From the NCBI GenBank assembly GCA_913775795.1, contig CAJYLT010000005.1, positions 1 to 64,000 of the forward strand: a DNA stretch of 64,000 bases, written 5' to 3'. The DNA comes from an uncultured Sphingomonas sp. (GTDB lineage Bacteria > Pseudomonadota > Alphaproteobacteria > Sphingomonadales > Sphingomonadaceae). The position numbers and the translations under genes were made by a program. Positions 27,195 to 38,245 of this stretch are shown one piece after another. The notes beneath the pieces are model-generated. The model did not search any database and was not told the DNA's origin. It saw nothing but the letters and a program-made list of their open reading frames with translations. How positions within the stretch are numbered: position 1 is the stretch's first letter; each line of letters opens with the position of its first letter.

Positions 27195-28241
27195 GTGAGC
27201 CGCCCGGCGTCGCAGCGCCCGACATCCTTCGACATCGCGTACCGCGCGGGCGTGTCGCAGCCGACCGTCAGCCGGGCGCTGCGTGGCTCGACCTCGGTCA
27301 GTGCCGAGACGCGCGCGCGGATCGAGGCGATCGCGCGCGAACTGGGCTATGCGGTCGACAAGAACGCTTCTTCGCTGCGCAGCCAGCAGTCGCACACGCT
27401 GGCGCTTCTCTTCTTCGAGGATCCGACCGCCGACGCCAGCCTCATCAACCCGTTCTTCCTGTCGATGCTCGGCTGGATCACCCGGCACACGGCGAATGCG
27501 GGATACGACCTGCTCATCTCGTTCCAGCAGCTCTCGGGCGACTGGCACAAGGCATATGAGGACAGCCGCAAGGCCGACGGGATCATCCTTCTCGGCTATG
27601 GCGATTACGAGGCGTATCGCCCGCGCCTCGAGCAATTGCGCGCGCAGGGCACGCATTACGTTCGCTGGGGCTCGCCCGAGCCGGGCGACGGCGGCGCGAC
27701 GATCGGCTGCGACAATCGCGCCGGCGGGCGGCTGGCGACCGAGCACCTGATCGGCCATGGGCGCCGCCGGATCGCGTTCCTGGGCGCGGGCGACGACCAT
27801 TATCCCGAGTTTCGCGACCGCTATCTCGGCTATCTCGACGCGCTCGCCGCGGCGGGCATGAGTGCCGACCCGGCGCTTCAGGTCGATGCGATCACGCTGG
27901 AACAGGCGGGCGCCGATGCGATCGGCGAGCTGTTCGCGCGCGGCGTCGCCTTCGACGGCATCGTCGCGGCCAGCGACCTGATCGCCATCGGCGCGATGCA
28001 GGCACTGGAACGGCGCGGCTATGCCGTCCCGCGCGCGGTGTCGGTCGTGGGCTTCGACGATATTCCCGCCGCGCAGCAGGCCTCGCCCCCGCTCACGACC
28101 GTGCAGCAGGATGCCAAGGCCGCGGGCGAGGCGCTGGTCGGCACGCTGCTCGACCGGATCACCGGGCGCGAGCCGCCCGCCGGCCCCCTGCCCGTCCGCC
28201 TGATCGTCCGGGCAAGCTGCGGCGCGCATACGAATACGTGA
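27195..28241 (+). CDS. LacI family transcriptional regulator
   Basis: GTG start; TSFDIAYRAGVSQPTVSRALRGSTSVSAETRARIEAIARELGYAVDKNAS; VVGFDDIPAAQQASPPLTTVQQD. Confidence 0.95.
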   Translation: MSRPASQRPTSFDIAYRAGVSQPTVSRALRGSTSVSAETRARIEAIARELGYAVDKNASSLRSQQSHTLALLFFEDPTADASLINPFFLSMLGWITRHTANAGYDLLISFQQLSGDWHKAYEDSRKADGIILLGYGDYEAYRPRLEQLRAQGTHYVRWGSPEPGDGGATIGCDNRAGGRLATEHLIGHGRRRIAFLGAGDDHYPEFRDRYLGYLDALAAAGMSADPALQVDAITLEQAGADAIGELFARGVAFDGIVAASDLIAIGAMQALERRGYAVPRAVSVVGFDDIPAAQQASPPLTTVQQDAKAAGEALVGTLLDRITGREPPAGPLPVRLIVRASCGAHTNT

Positions 28242-28308
28242 AGCGCCCCGCGCCCCCGCTTCATAAGGATGACGCCGACAGGGCGGCCAGCGTCCACGGG
28301 GAGGATAC

Positions 28309-29769
28309 ATGAACAAGCCGCGCCAGAGCATGGCGGGTCTCTGGAACATCTCGTTCGGCTTTTTCGGGATCCAGATCGCGTTCGCGCTTCAGAACGCCAA
28401 TGTCAGCCGCATCTTCCAGTCGCTGGGCGCCGAGATCGATCAGCTCGCGTTTCTGTCGATCGCCGGGCCGGTCACGGGCCTGCTCGTCCAGCCAGTCATC
28501 GGCCATTATTCGGACCGCACGTGGAGCCGCTTCGGCCGCCGCCGGCCCTTCTTCCTTGGCGGCGCGATCCTGGTGGCGTTGGCGCTGGTCGGGATGCCGC
28601 ATGCCGGCGTGCTGCTGACCGCGGCGATCATGCTGTGGCTGCTCGATGCGTCGCTCAACATCTCGATGGAGCCGTTCCGCGCCTTCGTCGGCGACATGCT
28701 GGGCAAGGAACAGCAAACCGCGGGCTACGCCTTCCAGACCGCGTTCATCGGCGCGGGCGCCGTCGTCGGCTCGCTGGCGCCCGAGCTCCTCAACATGGCG
28801 GGCGTCGCCAACACCGCGCCAGCGGGGGTCATTCCGCCGTCGGTTCGATACGCCTTCTATATCGGCGCTGCGGCGATCCTGTTGGCGGTGCTGTGGACCG
28901 TGCTCACCACGCGCGAATATCCGCCCGAGCAGATGGAAACCTTTGCCGGCCCCGCCGCGCCCGAGCATGAGGCGACGGTGGTGGCCCCCGCCAATGGCCC
29001 GATCTGGGCGCTGGCGGGCGTCGCCGTGGTGGCGGGAGTCTATGCGCTCGCGCTCGACAAGGCGGTCTATGTCCTCGGCGGAGCATTGGTCGCGTTCGGA
29101 TTGGCCCGTGTCGCGGCGCGGTCGATGGCGGCGAATGGCAGCCGAAGCGCGCTGGTCCTCATCAATTCCGACCTAGCACAGATGCCGCCGACGATGCGCC
29201 GCCTCGCGCTCGTTCAGTTCTTCACCTGGTCGGCCCTGTTCATCCTGTGGATCTATACCACCCCGGTCGTGACGCAGGTCGTGTTCGGCTCCACCGATCC
29301 CACCAGCGCCGCCTTTAACGAAGGGGCTGACTGGGTCGGCGTCCTGTTTGCCAGCTACAACGGGATCGCGGCGGTCGGCGCGTTTGTGCTGCCCTGGCTG
29401 GCGGGCCGGATCGGCAAGGTGAAGACGCATGTCTTTGGCCTGCTGTGCGGCGCGGCCGGGTTTGCGACGATCCTGGTCACCCGCGACGCGCACCTGCTGC
29501 TGGTGGCGATGGTGTTCGTCGGCATCGCCTGGGCGTCGATCCTGACGATGCCGTATGCGATCCTGGCCGGCGCGCTCGATCCGCGGAAGTACGGGATCTA
29601 CATGGGGCTGTTCAACATCTTCATCGTCGTGCCCCAGCTGATCGTCGCGGCGGTGATGGGTGCCGTCATCAAGGCGTTCTTCCCCGGCCAGCCGGTCTGG
29701 ACGATGGCGATCGGCGCGGCCGTGATGGTGCTCGCCGCAGCCACGATGCTGCGCGTGAAAGAGGCCTGA
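28309..29769 (+). CDS. MFS transporter (sugar/SLC45-like)
   Basis: WNISFGFFGIQIAFALQNANVSRIFQSLG; GHYSDRTWSRFGRRRPFFLGGA; 12-TM-like hydrophobicity; downstream of the mal-type regulator. Confidence 0.9.
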   Translation: MNKPRQSMAGLWNISFGFFGIQIAFALQNANVSRIFQSLGAEIDQLAFLSIAGPVTGLLVQPVIGHYSDRTWSRFGRRRPFFLGGAILVALALVGMPHAGVLLTAAIMLWLLDASLNISMEPFRAFVGDMLGKEQQTAGYAFQTAFIGAGAVVGSLAPELLNMAGVANTAPAGVIPPSVRYAFYIGAAAILLAVLWTVLTTREYPPEQMETFAGPAAPEHEATVVAPANGPIWALAGVAVVAGVYALALDKAVYVLGGALVAFGLARVAARSMAANGSRSALVLINSDLAQMPPTMRRLALVQFFTWSALFILWIYTTPVVTQVVFGSTDPTSAAFNEGADWVGVLFASYNGIAAVGAFVLPWLAGRIGKVKTHVFGLLCGAAGFATILVTRDAHLLLVAMVFVGIAWASILTMPYAILAGALDPRKYGIYMGLFNIFIVVPQLIVAAVMGAVIKAFFPGQPVWTMAIGAAVMVLAAATMLRVKEA

Positions 29770-29843: not shown

Positions 29844-30839
29844 ATGGGCATTCTCGATTTTCTGAAGAAGCAGTTCGTCGACGTCATCGATTGGGTAGAG
29901 GAGCCCGGCGACCTCGCCATCCGCTATCCGATGGAGGATCGCGAGATCCAGAACGGTGCCGCGCTGACGGTGCGCGAGGGGCAGGTCGCGTTCTTCTATA
30001 ACGAGGGGCAGATGGCCGACGCGTTCGGGCCGGGCCAGCATACGCTGAACACGCAGAACCTGCCGCTCCTCACCGCGCTCCAGAACTGGGACAAGGGCTT
30101 CCAGTCGCCGTTCAAGGCCGACGTGCTGTTCTTCACGCAGAAGGAACAGGCCGGCCTCAAATGGGGCACGTCGCAGCCCGTCACCGTGCGCGACAAGGAG
30201 TTCGGCCCGCTGCGCATCCGCGCGTTCGGCGGCTACAGTTTCCGCATCGAACAGCCGCCGGTGTTCCAGGCCAAGCTGATGGGCACGCTCGATCACGTCC
30301 GCGTCGGCGATGTGGAGGGCCAGCTGCGCTCGGCGATCGCGACGCAGCTTGCGACCTCGCTCGGTCGCAGCGAGTTCGGCTTCGTCGACATGGCTGCCGA
30401 TCAGGCGGCGATGTCCGACCGCCTGCGCGAGATGGTGCAGCCCGCCTTCACCCAATGGGGCCTCAGCTGCCAGACCTTCTTCGTCGAGAGCCTGTCGCTG
30501 CCCGACGAGGTGCAGAAATATCTCGACAAGGCATCGTCGATGCGCGTCGTCGGCGACCTCGACCGCTTCGTGAAGTTCCAGAGCGCCGACGCGATCGAAA
30601 AGGCGGCGAGTGCTGAGGGCGGGGTCGCGAGCCTGGGCGTCGGCGCGGGTGCGGGCATGGCGCTGGGTCAGGCGATGGCCGCGGGCCTTGGCGGCGGCGG
30701 TCAGGCGAGCGCGCCCGCTGGCGGCGGCGACGATCCGTACGGCCAGATCGAGAAACTGCACAAGCTGCTGACGATCGGCGCGATCACCCAGGCGGACTTC
30801 GACGCGAAGAAGGCGGAGTTGCTGGGCCGGATTCGCTGA
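29844..30839 (+). CDS. SPFH domain protein with C-terminal SHOCT-like region (virion core/YdjI-like family)
   Basis: MGILDFLKKQFVDVIDWVEEPGDLAIRYPMEDREIQNGAALTVREGQVAFFYNEGQMADAFGPGQHTLNTQNLP; C-terminus DDPYGQIEKLHKLLTIGAITQADFDAKKAELLGRI. Confidence 0.9.
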   Translation: MGILDFLKKQFVDVIDWVEEPGDLAIRYPMEDREIQNGAALTVREGQVAFFYNEGQMADAFGPGQHTLNTQNLPLLTALQNWDKGFQSPFKADVLFFTQKEQAGLKWGTSQPVTVRDKEFGPLRIRAFGGYSFRIEQPPVFQAKLMGTLDHVRVGDVEGQLRSAIATQLATSLGRSEFGFVDMAADQAAMSDRLREMVQPAFTQWGLSCQTFFVESLSLPDEVQKYLDKASSMRVVGDLDRFVKFQSADAIEKAASAEGGVASLGVGAGAGMALGQAMAAGLGGGGQASAPAGGGDDPYGQIEKLHKLLTIGAITQADFDAKKAELLGRIR

Positions 30840-30843
30840 TCGT

Positions 30844-30968
30844 CTCCCCTCCCTGACAAGGGAGGGGTCGGGGTGGGTCGGCCCGCGATGGCCGCCTCAT
30901 CTGCCGCGAATGCCACGCCCGACAATCGGCCCACCCACCCCCAGCCCCTCCCTTCTCAGGGAGGGGAG
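30844..30968. repeat. large inverted repeat whose arms are themselves hairpins
   Basis: CTCCCCTCCCTGACAAGGGAGGGGTCGGGGTGGGTCGGCC versus the reverse complement of GGCCCACCCACCCCCAGCCCCTCCCTTCTCAGGGAGGGGAG; only a few differences. Confidence 0.85.
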
Positions 30969-30982
30969 CAGGTCGCCCCTCA

Positions 30983-31651
30983 ATGCTGACCCTACCCTGC
31001 CCCAATTGCGGCGCGCCCGTGACCTTCCGATCGCCGGCGCTGCCCAATCGCGTCTGCGACCATTGCCGCTCGATGCTGGTGCGCAGCGATGTGGGCGTTG
31101 GCGTCGCCGGCGAACAGGCGGCACTGCCGTTCGACGTGTCGCCGATCCAGATCGGCACGCGCGGGCGCTTCGACGGGCGGGCGTTCGAGGTGATCGGCCG
31201 CGTCCGCTGGTCGTGGGACGACGGGTCGTGGAACGAATGGCTGTGCCTGTTCGAGGGCGGCGTCCACGGCTGGCTGGGCGAGGCGATGGGCGATTTCATG
31301 ATGACGTTCGAGCGGCCGCTGGCCGAGGTCCGCTCCGCCGAACTCGACCGCATCGCCCGCGGCGCGCCCGCGCTGCCCGGCCGCAAGGCTGAGATCGACG
31401 GCGAGGAACTGGCGATCGCCGACGCGCGTGAGGTGTCGTGTATCGCCGCCGAGGGCGAGCTGCCCTTCACCGCCCTGCCCGGCTGGACGATCTACTCCGT
31501 CGATCTCAAGGCCGCATCGGGCCGCGCCGCCAGCCTTCAGCGCGAGGGGGGCGAGGCATGGTTCTATGACGGCCGCTATGTGACGCTGGCCGAGCTGTCG
31601 GCCAACAACCTGCGCGCGATCGAGGGATGGACGATGCCGCGCTATGGCTGA
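30983..31651 (+). CDS. zinc-ribbon DUF4178 domain-containing protein
   Basis: MLTLPCPNCGAPVTFRSPALPNRVCDHCRSMLVRSD; IGTRGRFDGRAFEVIGRVRWSWDDGSWNEWLCLFEGGVHGWLGEAMG. Confidence 0.85.
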   Translation: MLTLPCPNCGAPVTFRSPALPNRVCDHCRSMLVRSDVGVGVAGEQAALPFDVSPIQIGTRGRFDGRAFEVIGRVRWSWDDGSWNEWLCLFEGGVHGWLGEAMGDFMMTFERPLAEVRSAELDRIARGAPALPGRKAEIDGEELAIADAREVSCIAAEGELPFTALPGWTIYSVDLKAASGRAASLQREGGEAWFYDGRYVTLAELSANNLRAIEGWTMPRYG

Positions 31652-32984
31652 CGCTGCCGTCGCCCAGCCCGCCGCGAAGGCGCTGTCCTGCCCCAATTGC
31701 GGCGGCACCGTCACGCTGCGCGCAGCCGGCTATTCCGTCACGGTCGCATGCGAGTATTGCGCGAGCATCCTCGACGTGTCCCAGCCCGAAGTGCGGCTGG
31801 TCACGCGCTACAACGAAAAGGCGTCGCGGCTCGCCATCCCGCTCGGCACGCGCGGCACGCTGGACGGGACCGAGTGGGAAGTGGTCGGCTGGATGGCGCG
31901 CGACGACAGCGGCTATCCGTGGGAGGAGTTCCTCCTCTTCAATCCCTATCACGGCTATCGCTGGCTGATCGAGCAGCGCGGCGGCTGGAGCTTCGGCGAG
32001 CAACTGACCCGGACGCCCGAGGGAAGCTGGGGCGGGCTCAAGGTCGATGGCGAAAGCTACAAGCCCTTCTTCGCCGACGGCACCGCGCGGGTGACCGACG
32101 TGGTCGGCGAATTCTACTGGCGGGTGAAGCGCGGCGACACCGTCCGCACCGACGATTGGGTAAGGCCGGGCGCGATGCTGTCGCGCGAGGCGGACGGCAA
32201 GGAGGTGAACTGGTCGCGCTCGCGCTGGGTCCCCGCCGCCACGATCGCCGCCGCCTTCGGCGTGGCGGCCGGCGGGAAGCCCTGGCCGCCGCTGCCGCAC
32301 CAGCCCTCGCCCGCGCTGCCCTTCGTCAAGGGCGGCATCGTCATCGCCATCCTCGCTTTCCTCGCCCTGTTGGTCGGCGCGTCGATCACCGGCGGCGGCC
32401 GATCGCTCTGGAACGGGTCGATCGCGATCGCCGCCGATGGTCGTGACCAGCAGGCGACGGTCGGCCCGATCGAACTTACCCGTCCCTATCAACGGGTACG
32501 CGTCTCGGCCGACGTGCCCGCGCTGTCGAACGGCTGGGTCGACCTCGACTACACGCTCGTCGATCGCAAGAACCAGGCGAGCTACACCGCGTCGAAGGCG
32601 GCGGAGCGCTACACCGGCCGCGACTCGGACGGCGACTGGAGCGAGGGCGACCAGACCGCCGGCGCCGATTTCGCCGCGCTGCCCGCCGGCACCTACGATC
32701 TCGTCATCGACTACAAAGGCAACAACTGGGTCGATCCGAACAAGTCTTCGGGCAACTTCTGGGATCCCGGCGCAGGCGAACGGACGCCCGACTGGCGCCG
32801 TGATGCCGTCCAGCCGCAGGTGAACATCAGCGTTCGCAGCCGCGGCGGCGCGGGCGGCGGCGTGTTCGTCCTCATGCTGATCCTGATCGTGCTGCCGCTC
32901 GGAGCCGGCCTCCTGATCCATGCCCAGTTCGAGGGCGCCCGCCGCGGCGAGAGCGACTTCGCGTCGGGAGGGGACGACGACTGA
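31644..32984 (+). CDS. zinc-ribbon DUF4178 domain-containing membrane protein (longer paralogue)
   Basis: LSCPNCGGTVTLRAAGYSVTVACEYCASILDVSQPE; LGTRGTLDGTEWEVVGWMARDDSGYPWEEFLLFNPYHGYRWLIEQRGGWSFG; TM helices around VIAILAFLALLVGASI and VLMLILIVLPLGAGLLI. Confidence 0.87.
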   Translation: MADAAVAQPAAKALSCPNCGGTVTLRAAGYSVTVACEYCASILDVSQPEVRLVTRYNEKASRLAIPLGTRGTLDGTEWEVVGWMARDDSGYPWEEFLLFNPYHGYRWLIEQRGGWSFGEQLTRTPEGSWGGLKVDGESYKPFFADGTARVTDVVGEFYWRVKRGDTVRTDDWVRPGAMLSREADGKEVNWSRSRWVPAATIAAAFGVAAGGKPWPPLPHQPSPALPFVKGGIVIAILAFLALLVGASITGGGRSLWNGSIAIAADGRDQQATVGPIELTRPYQRVRVSADVPALSNGWVDLDYTLVDRKNQASYTASKAAERYTGRDSDGDWSEGDQTAGADFAALPAGTYDLVIDYKGNNWVDPNKSSGNFWDPGAGERTPDWRRDAVQPQVNISVRSRGGAGGGVFVLMLILIVLPLGAGLLIHAQFEGARRGESDFASGGDDD

Positions 32985-33145
32985 TGCGCACCTCGATCTT
33001 TCTCTACGGCCTGTGGTGCCTCGCCATTGTCGGGCTGTTCATGGTCGCCAACACCTATGCCTGGTCGCCGTTCGCGGACGGGCGCAGCGGTCCGCGCGGC
33101 AGCGGCGGCGGCGTCATTTTCGTCGGCGGACCCAACCACAAATAA
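32984..33145 (+). CDS. 53-aa membrane peptide
   Basis: TGATG overlap with upstream stop: MRTSIFLYGLWCLAIVGLFMVANTYAWSPFADGRSGPRGSGGGVIFVGGPNHK*. Below the length cutoff of the supplied ORF track. Confidence 0.7.
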   Translation: MRTSIFLYGLWCLAIVGLFMVANTYAWSPFADGRSGPRGSGGGVIFVGGPNHK

Positions 33146-33157
33146 AGGGGATTTCGG

Positions 33158-33370
33158 ATGGTCACCTCGCTCGCCACCCTGCTGAACACACTGCTCTATG
33201 CCGGCGTCGGCATCTTCGTGTTCCTCGTCGGTTTCTTCATCCTTGACCTCCTGACCCCCGGCAAGCTCTGGCAGGAGATTCACGACCAGCGGAACATCGG
33301 CGTCGCGATCGTCGCGGGGGCGATGGCGCTGGGCCTGGCGATTATCGTCGCTGCCGCCATCCATGGCTGA
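33158..33370 (+). CDS. DUF350 (YjfL/UPF0719-like) membrane protein
   Basis: MVTSLATLLNTLLYAGVGIFVFLVGFFILDLLTPGKLWQEIHDQRNIGVAIVAGAMALGLAIIVAAAIHG. Confidence 0.88.
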   Translation: MVTSLATLLNTLLYAGVGIFVFLVGFFILDLLTPGKLWQEIHDQRNIGVAIVAGAMALGLAIIVAAAIHG

Positions 33371-34892
33371 AGCCGACCCCGCCGCGCGGCCAAAGGTCAC
33401 GGCGCCGGCGGGGGCACTCCTCGTCTCGGCGTTCGTCGTCGCGACGTGCGGGCTTATATACGAACTGCTCGCGTCGACGATCGCCAGCTACCTGCTCGGC
33501 GACAGCGTCACGCAGTTCTCGACCGTCATCGGCACCTATCTGTTCGCGATGGGCATCGGATCGTGGTGCTCGCGCTATGTAAAACGCGGCGAGCTTCGCC
33601 TGTTCGTCCGCACCGAATTGCTGATCGCGATTATCGGCGGCTGTTCGGCCGCGCTCCTCTTCATGCTCTTTCCGCTGGTCGAGCATTTCCGCATCGCGCT
33701 CTACGGCATCGTGCTGGCGATCGGGTTCCTCGTCGGGCTCGAGATCCCGCTGCTCATCCGCATCCTCAAGGATTTCGATTTCCGCGAGACGGTGTCGAGT
33801 GTCCTCACCTTCGACTATGTCGGCGCGCTCGCCGCCTCGCTCCTCTTCCCGCTCGTCCTGATGCCGCATCTCGGCATGATCCGCACGGGTTTCGCATTCG
33901 GCATCGCCAATGCGGGCGTCGCGCTCGCCCTCCTGCTCGCGCTCCCGCGCGGACGTCGGATGAAGGGGGAGGTCGCCGCCGCAATCGTCATCCTCCTGCT
34001 GCTCGCCGCCGGCTTCGCCGCGTCGGACAAGCTCCAGCGGTTCGGCGAGCAGGCGGGCTATGGCGAGCCCGTCGTCTATGCTCGGTCGAGCCGCTACCAG
34101 CGCATCGTCCTGACGCGAAAGGACGACGACCTGCGCCTCTATCTCAACGGCAACCTGCAATTCTCGTCCCGCGACGAGTATCGCTATCACGAGGCGCTGG
34201 TGAAGCCCGTGCTGGGCCGCGTCGCCAACCCCGCCAATGTCCTGATCCTGGGCGGCGGCGACGGCCTCGCGGCGCGGGAGGTATTTCGCGACCCCGCCGT
34301 CCGCCGCGTGACACTGGTCGATCTCGACCCGGAAATGACCGCGCTGTTCCGCGACACCCCGGCGCTGGCCGAGCTCAATCGCGGCTCGCTGTCCGACCCG
34401 CGCATGACCGTCGTCAACGCCGACGCGTTCAGATGGGCGCGAGAGGCCCGGGGACAGTATGACGCGATCATCGTCGATTTCCCCGATCCCGTCGATTATT
34501 CGGTGGGCAAGCTCTACACCGACGCCTTCTATACCCAGGTCCGCCGCCTCCTCGCGCCATCGGGCATGATGGTCGTCCAGTCGACCTCGCCGCTGGTGGC
34601 GCCCGACGCCTATTGGACGATTTCGACGACGCTGGAGGCAGTGGGGTTCGCAACCAAGGGCTATCACGCCTATGTCCCGAGCTTCGGCGAATGGGGCTAC
34701 ACGCTCGCCGCGCTGCGCCCGATCCCGGCGCACGCCCGGCTGACGCCCGGCCGGTTCGTCACCGCCGCGAGCGAACCGCCGCTGTTCGACTTTCCCCCCG
34801 ACATGGCCCGCCGCCGGGTCGAGGTGAACCGGCTGGACAATCAGGCGCTGGTCCGCGTCTTCGACACCGCGTGGAGCCGGTATGAAAGCTGA
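33363..34892 (+). CDS. polyamine aminopropyltransferase (spermidine synthase-like) with N-terminal multi-TM domain
   Basis: Multi-TM N-terminus (CGLIYELLASTIASYLLGDSVTQFSTVIGTYLFAMGIGS); VLILGGGDGLAAREVFRDPAVRRVTLVDLDPEMTALF; YDAIIVDFPDPVDYSVGKLYTDAFY. Confidence 0.93.
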   Translation: MAEADPAARPKVTAPAGALLVSAFVVATCGLIYELLASTIASYLLGDSVTQFSTVIGTYLFAMGIGSWCSRYVKRGELRLFVRTELLIAIIGGCSAALLFMLFPLVEHFRIALYGIVLAIGFLVGLEIPLLIRILKDFDFRETVSSVLTFDYVGALAASLLFPLVLMPHLGMIRTGFAFGIANAGVALALLLALPRGRRMKGEVAAAIVILLLLAAGFAASDKLQRFGEQAGYGEPVVYARSSRYQRIVLTRKDDDLRLYLNGNLQFSSRDEYRYHEALVKPVLGRVANPANVLILGGGDGLAAREVFRDPAVRRVTLVDLDPEMTALFRDTPALAELNRGSLSDPRMTVVNADAFRWAREARGQYDAIIVDFPDPVDYSVGKLYTDAFYTQVRRLLAPSGMMVVQSTSPLVAPDAYWTISTTLEAVGFATKGYHAYVPSFGEWGYTLAALRPIPAHARLTPGRFVTAASEPPLFDFPPDMARRRVEVNRLDNQALVRVFDTAWSRYES

Positions 34893-36486
34893 CCGACGGG
34901 CTGCGCTGTTCGGCCTCGGCGCGGGGGCGGCGGCGCTGGCGGGGGGCGGCGCGGCGCTGGCGTTCCGAGAACCGCCGCTGCCGCCCGGCGCACTTGCCGG
35001 CGCGGATCTCGCGCGCGGGCATCGGCTGCGTCAGGGGAAGTTCCCGGCGCCGTCGCGCGAGGAGCAGGTGGGCCTGGCCATCGCCGGCGGCGGGATTTCG
35101 GGGCTGTCGGCGGGGTGGACGCTGGCCGAAGCCGGCTTCGACGATTTCGCGCTGCTCGAGTTGGAAGACGAAGCGGGCGGAAACGCGCGCAGCGGCCGCA
35201 ATGCCGTCAGCGCCTATCCGCTCGGCGCGCACTACCTGCCCATCCCCAATCGCGAGGCGACAGCGCTTCGTCGGATGCTTCAGCGCATGGGGATGATCGT
35301 CGGCGAGGCGAACGGCGTGCCGGTCTACGACCCGATGCAGCTTTGCGCCGACCTTCAGGAACGGCTGCTCTGGCGCGGGCGCTGGCAGGAAGGGCTGGTC
35401 CCGCGAACCGGCCTTGCGGCCAAGGACAAGGCCGATCTCGCCGCCTTCGACGCCGAGATGGCGCGCGCGAGAGCCGCGATCGGCAGCGACGACCGGCCGG
35501 CCTTCACCACGCCGACCGCCTACAGCTCGGCCGATCCGGCATGGCGCGCTCTCGACCGACAGACGTTCGCCGGCTGGCTCGACGCGCGCGGCCTGACCTC
35601 GCCGGTCCTACGCGCGCACGTCCGCTATTCGATGCGCGACGATTACGGAACCGAGCCGGAGCACGTGTCCGCCTGGGCCGGCGTGCATTACTGGGCGGGC
35701 CGCCGCGGGTTCGCTGCGCCCGACGTCGCCGACAACGTGCTGACCTGGCCGGTCGGCAACGGGCACCTTGCCGGCCTGATGGCGAAGCGCCTCGGCGATC
35801 GCATCCGTGCTGGCCGCATCGTCCATGCCGTCACCCGCACCGACGACGGCGTCGCGATCGACAGCTTCGACGTCGCAAGCGGCGACACCGTCCGCACGCA
35901 CGCCCGCGCCGCCATTCTGGCGATGCCGCTGTTCGTCACCGCGCGGCTGGTCCCGGAGATCGATGCGAAGCCCTGCACCTACGCCCCCTGGATCGTCGCC
36001 AACGTCACCGTGGCACAGCCGCCGCGCGGGACGGGCGCGCCGCTCGCTTGGGACAATGTTTCGACCACCAGCGAATCGCTCGGCTACGTCGTCGCGACGC
36101 ATCAGGACGCGTCGGCCCCCGCCGGCGCGACGGTGCTGAGCTGGTACATGCCGCTGTCGAGCATGGCGCCGGCCAGCGCCCGTCGCCTGATGCTCGAGCG
36201 CCCCGCCGACGAGTGGAAGCGGATCGTTCGCGACGACCTGCTCGCCATGCACCCGGAACTCGACATCGGCGAGATCGCGCTGTGGCGCTGGGGCCATGCG
36301 ATGATCCGCCCGACGCCCGGCTATGTCTGGGGCGCCGCCCCGCGCCACCGCGTCGACCCGCCGCTGTTCCTCGCGCACAGCGACCTGTCGGGGCTTTCGT
36401 TGTTCGAGGAAGCGCATTTCCACGGCACCCAGGCGGCGGAGGCGGCGATGACGACGCTCGGCCACGCGCACGAGACGCTGATATGA
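34882..36486 (+). CDS. FAD-dependent amine-oxidase-like oxidoreductase with putative Tat signal
   Basis: MKADRRAALFGLGAGAAALAGGGAALAF; GLAIAGGGISGLSAGWTLAEAGFDDFALLELEDEAGGNARSGRN; C-terminal LFLAHSDLSGLSLFEEAHFHGTQAAEA. Confidence 0.88.
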   Translation: MKADRRAALFGLGAGAAALAGGGAALAFREPPLPPGALAGADLARGHRLRQGKFPAPSREEQVGLAIAGGGISGLSAGWTLAEAGFDDFALLELEDEAGGNARSGRNAVSAYPLGAHYLPIPNREATALRRMLQRMGMIVGEANGVPVYDPMQLCADLQERLLWRGRWQEGLVPRTGLAAKDKADLAAFDAEMARARAAIGSDDRPAFTTPTAYSSADPAWRALDRQTFAGWLDARGLTSPVLRAHVRYSMRDDYGTEPEHVSAWAGVHYWAGRRGFAAPDVADNVLTWPVGNGHLAGLMAKRLGDRIRAGRIVHAVTRTDDGVAIDSFDVASGDTVRTHARAAILAMPLFVTARLVPEIDAKPCTYAPWIVANVTVAQPPRGTGAPLAWDNVSTTSESLGYVVATHQDASAPAGATVLSWYMPLSSMAPASARRLMLERPADEWKRIVRDDLLAMHPELDIGEIALWRWGHAMIRPTPGYVWGAAPRHRVDPPLFLAHSDLSGLSLFEEAHFHGTQAAEAAMTTLGHAHETLI

Positions 36487-36854
36487 CGCCCCCGCCCCCT
36501 TATGACGGCGTGCACCTGATCGCCGACCTGTCCGGCGGCCGGGGGCTCGACGATGCGACATTGATCGAACGCGCGCTGCGCGAGGCGGCGGCGGCAGCGC
36601 GCGCGACGCTGCTGGAGGTACGCCTCCATGCCTTCGGGCCGGGGCAAGGGATCACTGGCGTCGCGCTGCTCGCCGAATCCCACATCTCGATCCATTCCTG
36701 GCCCGAGCACGGCTATGCCGCAGTCGACATCTTCGTCTGCGGTCGCCGCTGCGATCCCGATGCGGCGCTCGCGACACTGGTTGAGATGCTCGGTGCGACC
36801 CTCCACAGCGAGCGGCGCATCGCCCGAGGCTTCGGCGTCGTTCAACCGGCGTAG
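36483..36854 (+). CDS. speD: S-adenosylmethionine decarboxylase proenzyme (SpeD/SpeH class)
   Basis: DGVHLIADLSGGRGLDDATLIERALREAAAAARATLLEVRLHAFGPGQGITGVALLAESHISIHSWPEHGYAAVDIFVCG; pyruvoyl cleavage site at ES in LAESHISIHSWPE. Confidence 0.94.
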   Translation: MTPPPPYDGVHLIADLSGGRGLDDATLIERALREAAAAARATLLEVRLHAFGPGQGITGVALLAESHISIHSWPEHGYAAVDIFVCGRRCDPDAALATLVEMLGATLHSERRIARGFGVVQPA

Positions 36855-38245
36855 GCGGCCGCGTTCCGCAGATCCTCCACGAACCGCGCATATTCCTCCT
36901 CGGTCTGCACCTTGTCGGGCAGGCGCAGGAGGAAGCTCGGATGCACCGTGATCCACCCCTCCCCGCCGTCCGCCAACGCGATCGGTCGCCCGCGTTCGCG
37001 CGAGATCGTCACCGTCTTCCCCGTCAGCGACCGCGCCGCCGTCGCGCCCAGCGCCACGGTCAGCTTCGGCGTCAGCAGCATCCGCTCCTGCTCCACCCAC
37101 CAGCGGCACGCGTCGATTTCGCCCGCATCAGGCTTGGCATGGATGCGCCGCTTGCCGCGCGGCTCGAACTTGAAGTGCTTGACCGCGTTGGTGACATACA
37201 CGGTGTCGCGGTCGATCCCCGCCTCGCCCATCGCCCGGTCGAACACCTGCCCCGCCGGGCCGACGAACGGGCGACCGGCCAGATCTTCCTGATCCCCCGG
37301 CTGCTCGCCGACGAACATCATTCGCGCATCGAGCGGCCCCTCCCCGAACACGGTCTGCGTCGCGGGTTGGTACAGGTGGCAGCGGGTGCAGCCCATCGCC
37401 TCCTCGCGCAGCGCCGCCCACGCGCCCTCGACATTCCCGCCCGGCGTCGCCGCCCTTGCCGTCTCGATCATCGCCGTCTCCCGCGCCCGCGCTCCCGCGA
37501 TCAGCTCGCCGACCAGTGCCGTCTCGGGCATGTTCTTCCAGTATTTGCGCGGCATCTCGCGCAGCATTGCCCCGACCTTCAGCCGCGCGGGATTGAAGAT
37601 CGACGCATAATAGGTCTTCCACACCGCTTCGATCGGATCACCGTCGGGCGCATCGGCCTTCGCCGCGCCCGGCCCCTCGCGCAGCGTCTGCGTATCCCAG
37701 TGGAGCGACACTTCGGGCGACAGGATCGACCAGCGCATCGTGTTGAAGCGATTGACGAAGAAGGCGGCGTTGGCGCGGACGATGTGATGTTCGGGCTCGA
37801 ACCAGGCGACGAAACGCTCGCCGTCATCGTCGGGCACCTCGCGAAAGCGCAGGAACGCGCGCATCTTGTGGATATCGCGCCGTACCGCCTTGGTCATTTC
37901 GTCGAGGCGGCGGCGCGCGGGGTCGGCGCGGTCGTCGATCAGGCGGGGCTGGTCGATCAACCGCACCAGCATCGCATATAGCCGCGCAAATCGCTCGGGG
38001 TCGCTGTGCAGCACAACGCTGTGCGCCAAGTCGATGAACGCCTTGGGCACGCGGAACGCCGGCGGCGGTGCGGGCGGCGACGGCTCCAGCGAGGGCACTT
38101 CCTCGGCGAACAGGTCCGTCGCGTGCCCCGCCACCTGCCAGATTACCCGGTCCGGGGGCACTCTATCGGTTGCGAGCGCCCGCGCGGCGTCCCGCCACCC
38201 CTCGAAATCGTCGGGGGCGTCGAGGCGCGCGACACGGATGCCCAT
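36842..38245 (-). CDS. DUF4130/TIGR03915-type domain fused to UdgX-type uracil-DNA binding protein/glycosylase
   Basis: N-terminus MGIRVARLDAPDDFEGWRDAARALATDRVPPDRVIWQV; UDG part MMFVGEQPGDQEDLAGRPFVGPAGQVFDRAMGEAGIDRDTVYVTNAVKHFKFEPRGKRRIHAKP with the UdgX KRRIH loop; HPSFLLR. Confidence 0.92.
   Translation of the reverse strand: MGIRVARLDAPDDFEGWRDAARALATDRVPPDRVIWQVAGHATDLFAEEVPSLEPSPPAPPPAFRVPKAFIDLAHSVVLHSDPERFARLYAMLVRLIDQPRLIDDRADPARRRLDEMTKAVRRDIHKMRAFLRFREVPDDDGERFVAWFEPEHHIVRANAAFFVNRFNTMRWSILSPEVSLHWDTQTLREGPGAAKADAPDGDPIEAVWKTYYASIFNPARLKVGAMLREMPRKYWKNMPETALVGELIAGARARETAMIETARAATPGGNVEGAWAALREEAMGCTRCHLYQPATQTVFGEGPLDARMMFVGEQPGDQEDLAGRPFVGPAGQVFDRAMGEAGIDRDTVYVTNAVKHFKFEPRGKRRIHAKPDAGEIDACRWWVEQERMLLTPKLTVALGATAARSLTGKTVTISRERGRPIALADGGEGWITVHPSFLLRLPDKVQTEEEYARFVEDLRNAAAYAG

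Follow-up and report, generated by a model that had tools for sequence, protein, structure and literature searches.

Gene content of the cluster

We analyzed a 64,000-nucleotide stretch (hereafter the window; contig CAJYLT010000005.1, positions 1 to 64,000) of a sphingomonad genome (2.88 Mb, 81% complete), in which 8 co-directional genes on the + strand, between positions 29844 and 36854, bring together polyamine-type enzymes, membrane proteins, and a very small protein ending in lysine. From position 30983 onward, the genes are joined by an 8-bp overlap, a TGATG junction, a 12-bp gap, and overlaps of 8, 11, and 4 bp, and the SPFH gene ends 143 bp upstream of the first DUF4178 gene; all 8 genes and their junctions are present as a first-pass annotation, made from the sequence, had described them. 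The genes and the features within them are as follows:

29844..30839, + strand: SPFH/band-7 protein with a C-terminal SHOCT domain (Band_7_1 PF13421, 3e-72; SHOCT PF09851, 4e-6)
30983..31651, + strand: DUF4178 protein A, with no transmembrane (TM) segment (PF13785, 3e-13; zinc-ribbon-like N-terminus CPNC...CDHC)
31644..32984, + strand: DUF4178 protein B (PF13785, 5e-20; zinc-ribbon-like motif, DUF4178, TM 225-250, beta-sandwich, TM 405-434)
32984..33145, + strand: single-TM tail protein of 53 aa ending in GGPNHK, proposed acceptor (position, TM, tail, and C-terminal Lys)
33140..33142, + strand: AAA codon for the last residue, Lys, the candidate site of aminopropylation (Lys at this position in all 87 tails collected)
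33158..33370, + strand: DUF350 (YjfL-like) protein of 70 aa (PF03994, 6e-16)
33363..34892, + strand: membrane aminopropyltransferase, 7TM plus spermidine-synthase domain (Spermine_synth, 1e-32; PRK03612, 643 bits)
33411..34025, + strand: seven-TM domain of the transferase (conserved acidic residues E34, E85, E127, and D151; loop charges)
34882..36486, + strand: flavin adenine dinucleotide (FAD) amine oxidase with a twin-arginine translocation (Tat)-type signal (Amino_oxidase PF01593, 2e-15)
36483..36854, + strand: S-adenosylmethionine (AdoMet) decarboxylase SpeD, class 1b (AdoMet_dc, 5e-33; TIGR03330, 113 bits)

Hidden Markov model searches recovered the domain families that the first-pass annotation had named, with the SHOCT match (26.8 bits) slightly below the curated 27-bit cut-off and the zinc ribbons of the DUF4178 proteins assigned from conserved CPxC...CxxC motifs, with no Pfam match above cut-off. 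No ATP-grasp match was obtained among the 8 genes in a profile search, and neither PspA nor CesT was identified among them, the whole genome not having been searched for PspA. Sequence searches returned no solved relatives of the SPFH protein or of DUF4178 protein B, and an AlphaFold2 model of the latter (pLDDT, predicted local distance difference test, 88) gave partial fold matches to generic jelly-roll/GOLD/CBM-like beta-sandwiches only. No strong 2TM segment was seen by eye in the band-7 protein.

Conservation and distribution of the cluster

We compared 110 loci with a homologous SpeE (the fusion of a TM region and a spermidine-synthase domain), including 30 from an even Pseudomonadota sample and 80 best matches in GTDB species. 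Near SpeE, DUF350 was identified in 95 loci, DUF4178 in 88, the FAD oxidase in 76, SpeD in 63, and SPFH in 40, with rates among the 80 biased because these were chosen by similarity to the window SpeE, whereas the even sample is free of this bias. Among the 299 Pseudomonadota genomes of the even sample, 31 encoded the fusion and 20 encoded DUF4178, all 20 of them within those 31 (hypergeometric, ~1e-23), and the gene association is far beyond chance. The window fusion shares 99% identity with the Sphingomonas yantingensis protein. The fusion is patchily distributed in the order (over cut-off in 3 of 101 genomes), and homologue records came from at least 8 phyla. The fusion is also located on some plasmids. 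An operon on an Alteromonas mediterranea plasmid (L217) comprises SpeE, SpeD, a TelA-like toxic-anion-resistance protein, DUF4178, a lipoprotein ending in SSGK, and DUF350.

A tail protein with an invariant C-terminal lysine

The 53-aa protein matched no family in profile libraries, and homologues were sought by position and ending because a profile built for it reached sphingomonads only. Its place is conserved, directly after DUF4178 and often overlapping the DUF4178 stop codon, and the only features common to the homologues found there are 1 TM segment, a tail rich in Gly and Ser, and Lys as the last residue. A Lys-ended anchored or exported tail was present in 88 of 88 DUF4178-bearing loci, stand-alone in 66, fused to the DUF4178 C-terminus with the same TM and Gly/Ser-rich tail in 21 (mostly Burkholderiales), and replaced by a lipoprotein ending in FGGK in 1 (L100). 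The last 2 residues among 87 tails were HK (64), GK (21), or IK (2). The terminal Lys was encoded by AAA in 55 and by AAG in 32, with all 3 stop codons in use, and it was present in 87/87 tails with a median identity of 12% over the 25 residues preceding the last 2.

Because the first tail list was assembled by looking for a Lys ending, the selection was repeated blind to the ending, and the nearest TM open reading frame (ORF) after DUF4178 ended in Lys in 64 of 67 cases. The remaining 3 were spurious picks, with 2 from loci that have fused tails and 1 from L085, which has a proper ORF ending in YHK. The background frequency of C-terminal Lys was 8.4% of 763 neighboring ORFs. As an out-of-sample check, the Lys ending was found in 7 of 7 intact plasmid-borne loci fetched later, L218 being a fragment. 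The Lys-ended tail is very probably an integral and functionally constrained part of the system. The first-pass annotation had left the substrate open and treated the small TM peptide as a minor component; with a C-terminal Lys that is essentially invariant, this peptide is now the best substrate candidate.

In PspA-type operons without the oxidase, a lipoprotein of 300-510 aa ends in FGGK, RRGK, SRGK, or SSGK, so the Lys ending tracks the transferase and not the oxidase. This bears on a lysyl-oxidase-like alternative in which the FAD oxidase acts directly on the C-terminal Lys, while SpeD and SpeE have a separate role. Such a reaction would suit an exported enzyme with an amine-oxidase fold on the likely side of the tail, but the Lys tail is kept in loci with no oxidase nearby (e.g., L044-L051, L056, and L067-L070), and we regard it as very improbable. 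Lipoprotein tails are extracytoplasmic by their lipobox, and the fused DUF4178 proteins mostly have 1 strong TM segment behind cytoplasmic-looking domains.

Catalytic residues and predicted topology of the enzymes

The transferase matched PRK03612/NF002956 over its full length (643 bits vs. an NCBIfam cut-off of 472), and the canonical SpeE model TIGR00417 gave 121.6 bits, below its 249.55 cut-off. Residues D300, D322, D354, D372, D375, Q406, and W444 were invariant in all 111 transferase sequences, and from alignment and comparison with solved spermidine synthases we take them to be the donor site and the catalytic aspartates. Pro374 was invariant as well (111/111), at an acceptor-pocket position where 3 solved relatives have Thr.

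Seven hydrophobic segments were identified, with K+R-rich loops after TM2, TM4, and TM6, and a model with the N-terminus inside was favored in 111/111 sequences, with the loop boundaries for this positive-inside analysis set by hand from the mean profile. An inward N-terminus followed by 7 TM segments would put the catalytic domain outside the cytoplasm; on this prediction, the spermidine-synthase domain and the Tat-type oxidase share the periplasmic side of the membrane. Within the TM region, E34, E85, E127, and D151 are nearly invariant, which is unusual for a mere membrane anchor.

The oxidase carries a Tat-type export signal, as the first reading of the sequence had it. Arg5 is invariant in 34/34 homologues, many of which have an RRxFL motif and a lipobox Cys, and the window signal (DRRAALFGLG) is a weaker match to RRxFL. 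The structural model of the oxidase (pLDDT 90) resembles monoamine oxidase, putrescine oxidase, and spermidine dehydrogenase; this modeled fold fits an amine product and leaves the reaction itself unfixed.

SpeD exceeded the TIGR03330 cut-off (113 vs. 75.65 bits) and, in an alignment to the AdoMet decarboxylase of T. maritima, retains the pyruvoyl Ser, the catalytic His, and the Cys, residues named here as in PMC10407285. SpeD as a neofunctionalized ornithine or arginine decarboxylase (PMC10407285) is disfavored, with Ser, His, and Cys all kept and a score at the level of an AdoMet decarboxylase equivalog, and it is disfavored only, because the arginine decarboxylase derivatives differ little.

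Spermidine supply in the host

The only AdoMet_dc gene and the only full SpdSyn domain found in the host genome lie in the cluster, which, together with the intact catalytic residues of both enzymes, would suit ordinary spermidine synthesis by SpeD and SpeE, with the other genes merely clustering alongside. However, a separate locus (L014, G000:C52, 449-4370) holds a gene for an ornithine decarboxylase (ODC)-like enzyme in divergent orientation to genes for a carboxy(nor)spermidine decarboxylase and a carboxy(nor)spermidine dehydrogenase. The carboxynorspermidine decarboxylase homologue scored 387 bits, slightly under the 409 cut-off, and the carboxynorspermidine synthase homologue reached 424 bits where the cut-off is 800. 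The carboxyspermidine route requires no SpeD, and by homology the L014 genes are probably the spermidine route of the host. Because genes for ODC, carboxyspermidine dehydrogenase, and carboxyspermidine decarboxylase (CASDC) thus lie together elsewhere in the genome, the product of the cluster is probably not ordinary spermidine.

Further evidence against ordinary spermidine synthesis comes from the 7TM-anchored and probably outward-facing catalytic domain and from the way the genes stay closely linked, across phyla, to those for DUF350, DUF4178, and an exported oxidase. In the 2019 work of Li and colleagues, the AdoMet decarboxylase beside membrane-SpdSyn fusions was reportedly active, spermidine was absent, and the fusion failed to complement a speE deletion; such pairs of SpeD and fusion are said to occur in thousands of bacteria. 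As here, SpeD in those systems reportedly neighbors a membrane-SpdSyn fusion and DUF350; that work reportedly identified no acceptor, whereas a candidate is proposed here. We consider ordinary spermidine synthesis improbable; the enzymes of the cluster resemble polyamine-making ones and probably do not make free polyamines. Among the 31 fusion genomes, a SpeE over the TIGR00417 cut-off was found in 1 and a CASDC homologue in 10. Two genomes with the membrane fusion also have an apparent SpeD-SpeE fusion ORF of ~450 aa (G181:C1:3827656-3828891 and G291:C50:2711-3928), which probably serves ordinary polyamines.

Comparison with ATP-grasp systems ending in Gly-Gly

In E. coli, yjfLMC and ygiBC each encode a DUF1190 protein and an ATP-grasp enzyme (YjfC, YgiC) annotated as "peptide--spermidine ligase". 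The YjfL-YjfM-YjfC and YgiB-YgiC systems resemble the window cluster in the DUF350 protein (in yjf), in a protein, exported or anchored, whose Gly/Ser/Arg-rich tail has a conserved terminus, and in a predicted polyamine-type modification of that tail; they differ in that an ATP-grasp ligase accompanies a Gly-Gly end there, whereas an aminopropyltransferase accompanies a Lys end here. Among DUF1190 proteins (L182-L211; L152; L181; most beside ATP-grasp ligases), 27 of 30 ended in GG and 0 of 30 in Lys. DUF1190 was not found in the host genome, and the tail in the window ends in HK. Across the 299 genomes, DUF1190 was present in 39 and the fusion in 31, with 0 shared and ~4 expected. The conserved Gly-Gly terminus may be the target of the ATP-grasp ligase, and the ending switches with the enzyme, as expected if the terminus is the modification site.

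This switch also bears on an alternative in which the transferase acts on a small molecule or lipid, the Lys tail is a regulator, docking peptide, or product sensor, and the oxidase recycles the product. Spermidine-synthase relatives use small amines, the DUF4178 and SPFH proteins are scaffold-like, and the 7TM domain could present a lipid. Neither the conservation of the last residue amid a variable tail nor the change to Gly-Gly with the ligase would be explained, and we consider this alternative rather unlikely.

A proposed extracytoplasmic aminopropylation pathway

We propose extracytoplasmic protein aminopropylation, a reading of the sequence data that we judge to be evenly poised, in which SpeD supplies the donor, the transferase modifies the C-terminal Lys of the anchored tail, and the oxidase then acts. 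SpeD would produce decarboxylated AdoMet in the cytoplasm, the 7TM transferase, with its spermidine-synthase domain on the periplasmic face of the inner membrane, would use this donor to aminopropylate the C-terminal Lys on its side chain, in a tail that is either a stand-alone membrane-anchored protein or fused to DUF4178, and the Tat-exported FAD oxidase would then oxidize the modified end. Since lysine, like putrescine, offers an amine on a four-carbon chain, the modified tail would end in a spermidine-like structure, and the Lys would have to be last because only the chain end could enter the closed acceptor pocket. DUF350 and the acidic TM residues of the transferase might, speculatively, carry the cationic donor across the membrane, and SPFH and DUF4178 might organize the complex; the purpose may lie in envelope stress. 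Hypusine formation on eIF5A likewise attaches an alkylamine taken from a polyamine to a lysine of a protein, and it differs from the proposed reaction in its internal lysine, its aminobutyl donor from spermidine, its unrelated enzyme, and its cytoplasmic location.

Several points weigh against this proposal. A periplasmic aminopropyltransferase needs decarboxylated AdoMet outside the cytoplasm, for which we know of no precedent, and the predicted topology of the transferase rests on loop charges. The flanking charge of the stand-alone peptide is ambiguous (N>C in 26/66, C>N in 19/66), the Lys might be invariant because of a role in binding or sorting, and Pro374 by itself is no indication of a lysine acceptor. 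Further, the loci counted are not phylogenetically independent.

The broader claim is of a new posttranslational modification outside the cytoplasm, in which a C-terminal Lys would be aminopropylated via exported decarboxylated AdoMet and then oxidized, with the ATP-grasp/Gly-Gly system as its functional counterpart elsewhere; we advance it tentatively and lean slightly toward doubt. What is new is a candidate acceptor for the aminopropyl group that is specific and testable, and with one very small partner protein always ending in the same residue, the acceptor question comes down to 1 mass-spectrometry experiment. If true, the proposal would add a protein modification, would place AdoMet chemistry outside the cytoplasm, and would join the transferase/Lys-tail and ligase/Gly-Gly-tail envelope operons by one idea, that of polyamine-like tail ends.

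Relation to described operon families

The link of DUF350, DUF4178, and polyamine enzymes to PspA-type operons, including PspA-less variants, which the first-pass annotation had given, agrees with Ravi et al. 2024 (PMC11237479), where the 7TM-SpdSyn/DUF350/DUF4178 group belongs to the phage-shock-protein-linked polyamine operons. In that paper, a PspA-less variant has band-7/SHOCT, AdoMet decarboxylase, and polyamine oxidase; Li et al. 2019 (10.1042/BCJ20190561) is cited there for a polyamine-independent role of AdoMet decarboxylase. The gene families of this variant are those found here, with a band-7 protein apparently standing where the CesT/Tir-PspA pair would be and with both the AdoMet decarboxylase and the polyamine (amine) oxidase genes present, but its band-7 protein has a C-terminal 2TM that is not obvious here, and its parent group has an ATP-grasp (YjfC-like) ligase, with none nearby here (PMC11237479). 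The Lys-ended tail peptide, the DUF4178 fusion, and the predicted outward topology, all described here, are not mentioned in the available text of Ravi et al. 2024 (PMC11237479), and a literature search for a C-terminal lysine with an aminopropyltransferase, and for Ctha_1186, returned nothing beyond that paper.

With such operons described there and in the earlier fusion work, the cluster counts as a member of a described but unexplained family. The membrane-linked pathway that the first-pass annotation had suggested is supported as regards a conserved cluster whose product is probably not ordinary spermidine, given the separate route genes, and its arrangement is not new.

Intergenic repeat and neighboring genes

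One further feature lies between the SPFH and the first DUF4178 genes:

30844..30968, no strand: imperfect palindrome of 125 bp (42-nt arms, 81% complementary)

In 3 close relatives (L042, L073, and L074), the gap between these genes is ~20 bp and the palindrome is absent, so it is probably a later repeat insertion, which may or may not split the transcript. In a PADLOC search, no anti-phage system covered the cluster proteins, with only a partial SpdSyn-domain match to mad2 and a weak desaturase match. Downstream, a convergent gene (36842-38245, - strand) with DUF4130 and uracil-DNA glycosylase domains shares 13 bp with the end of speD. Upstream, a LacI-family regulator and a major facilitator superfamily sugar transporter are encoded on the same strand (27195-29769) and apparently form a separate unit.

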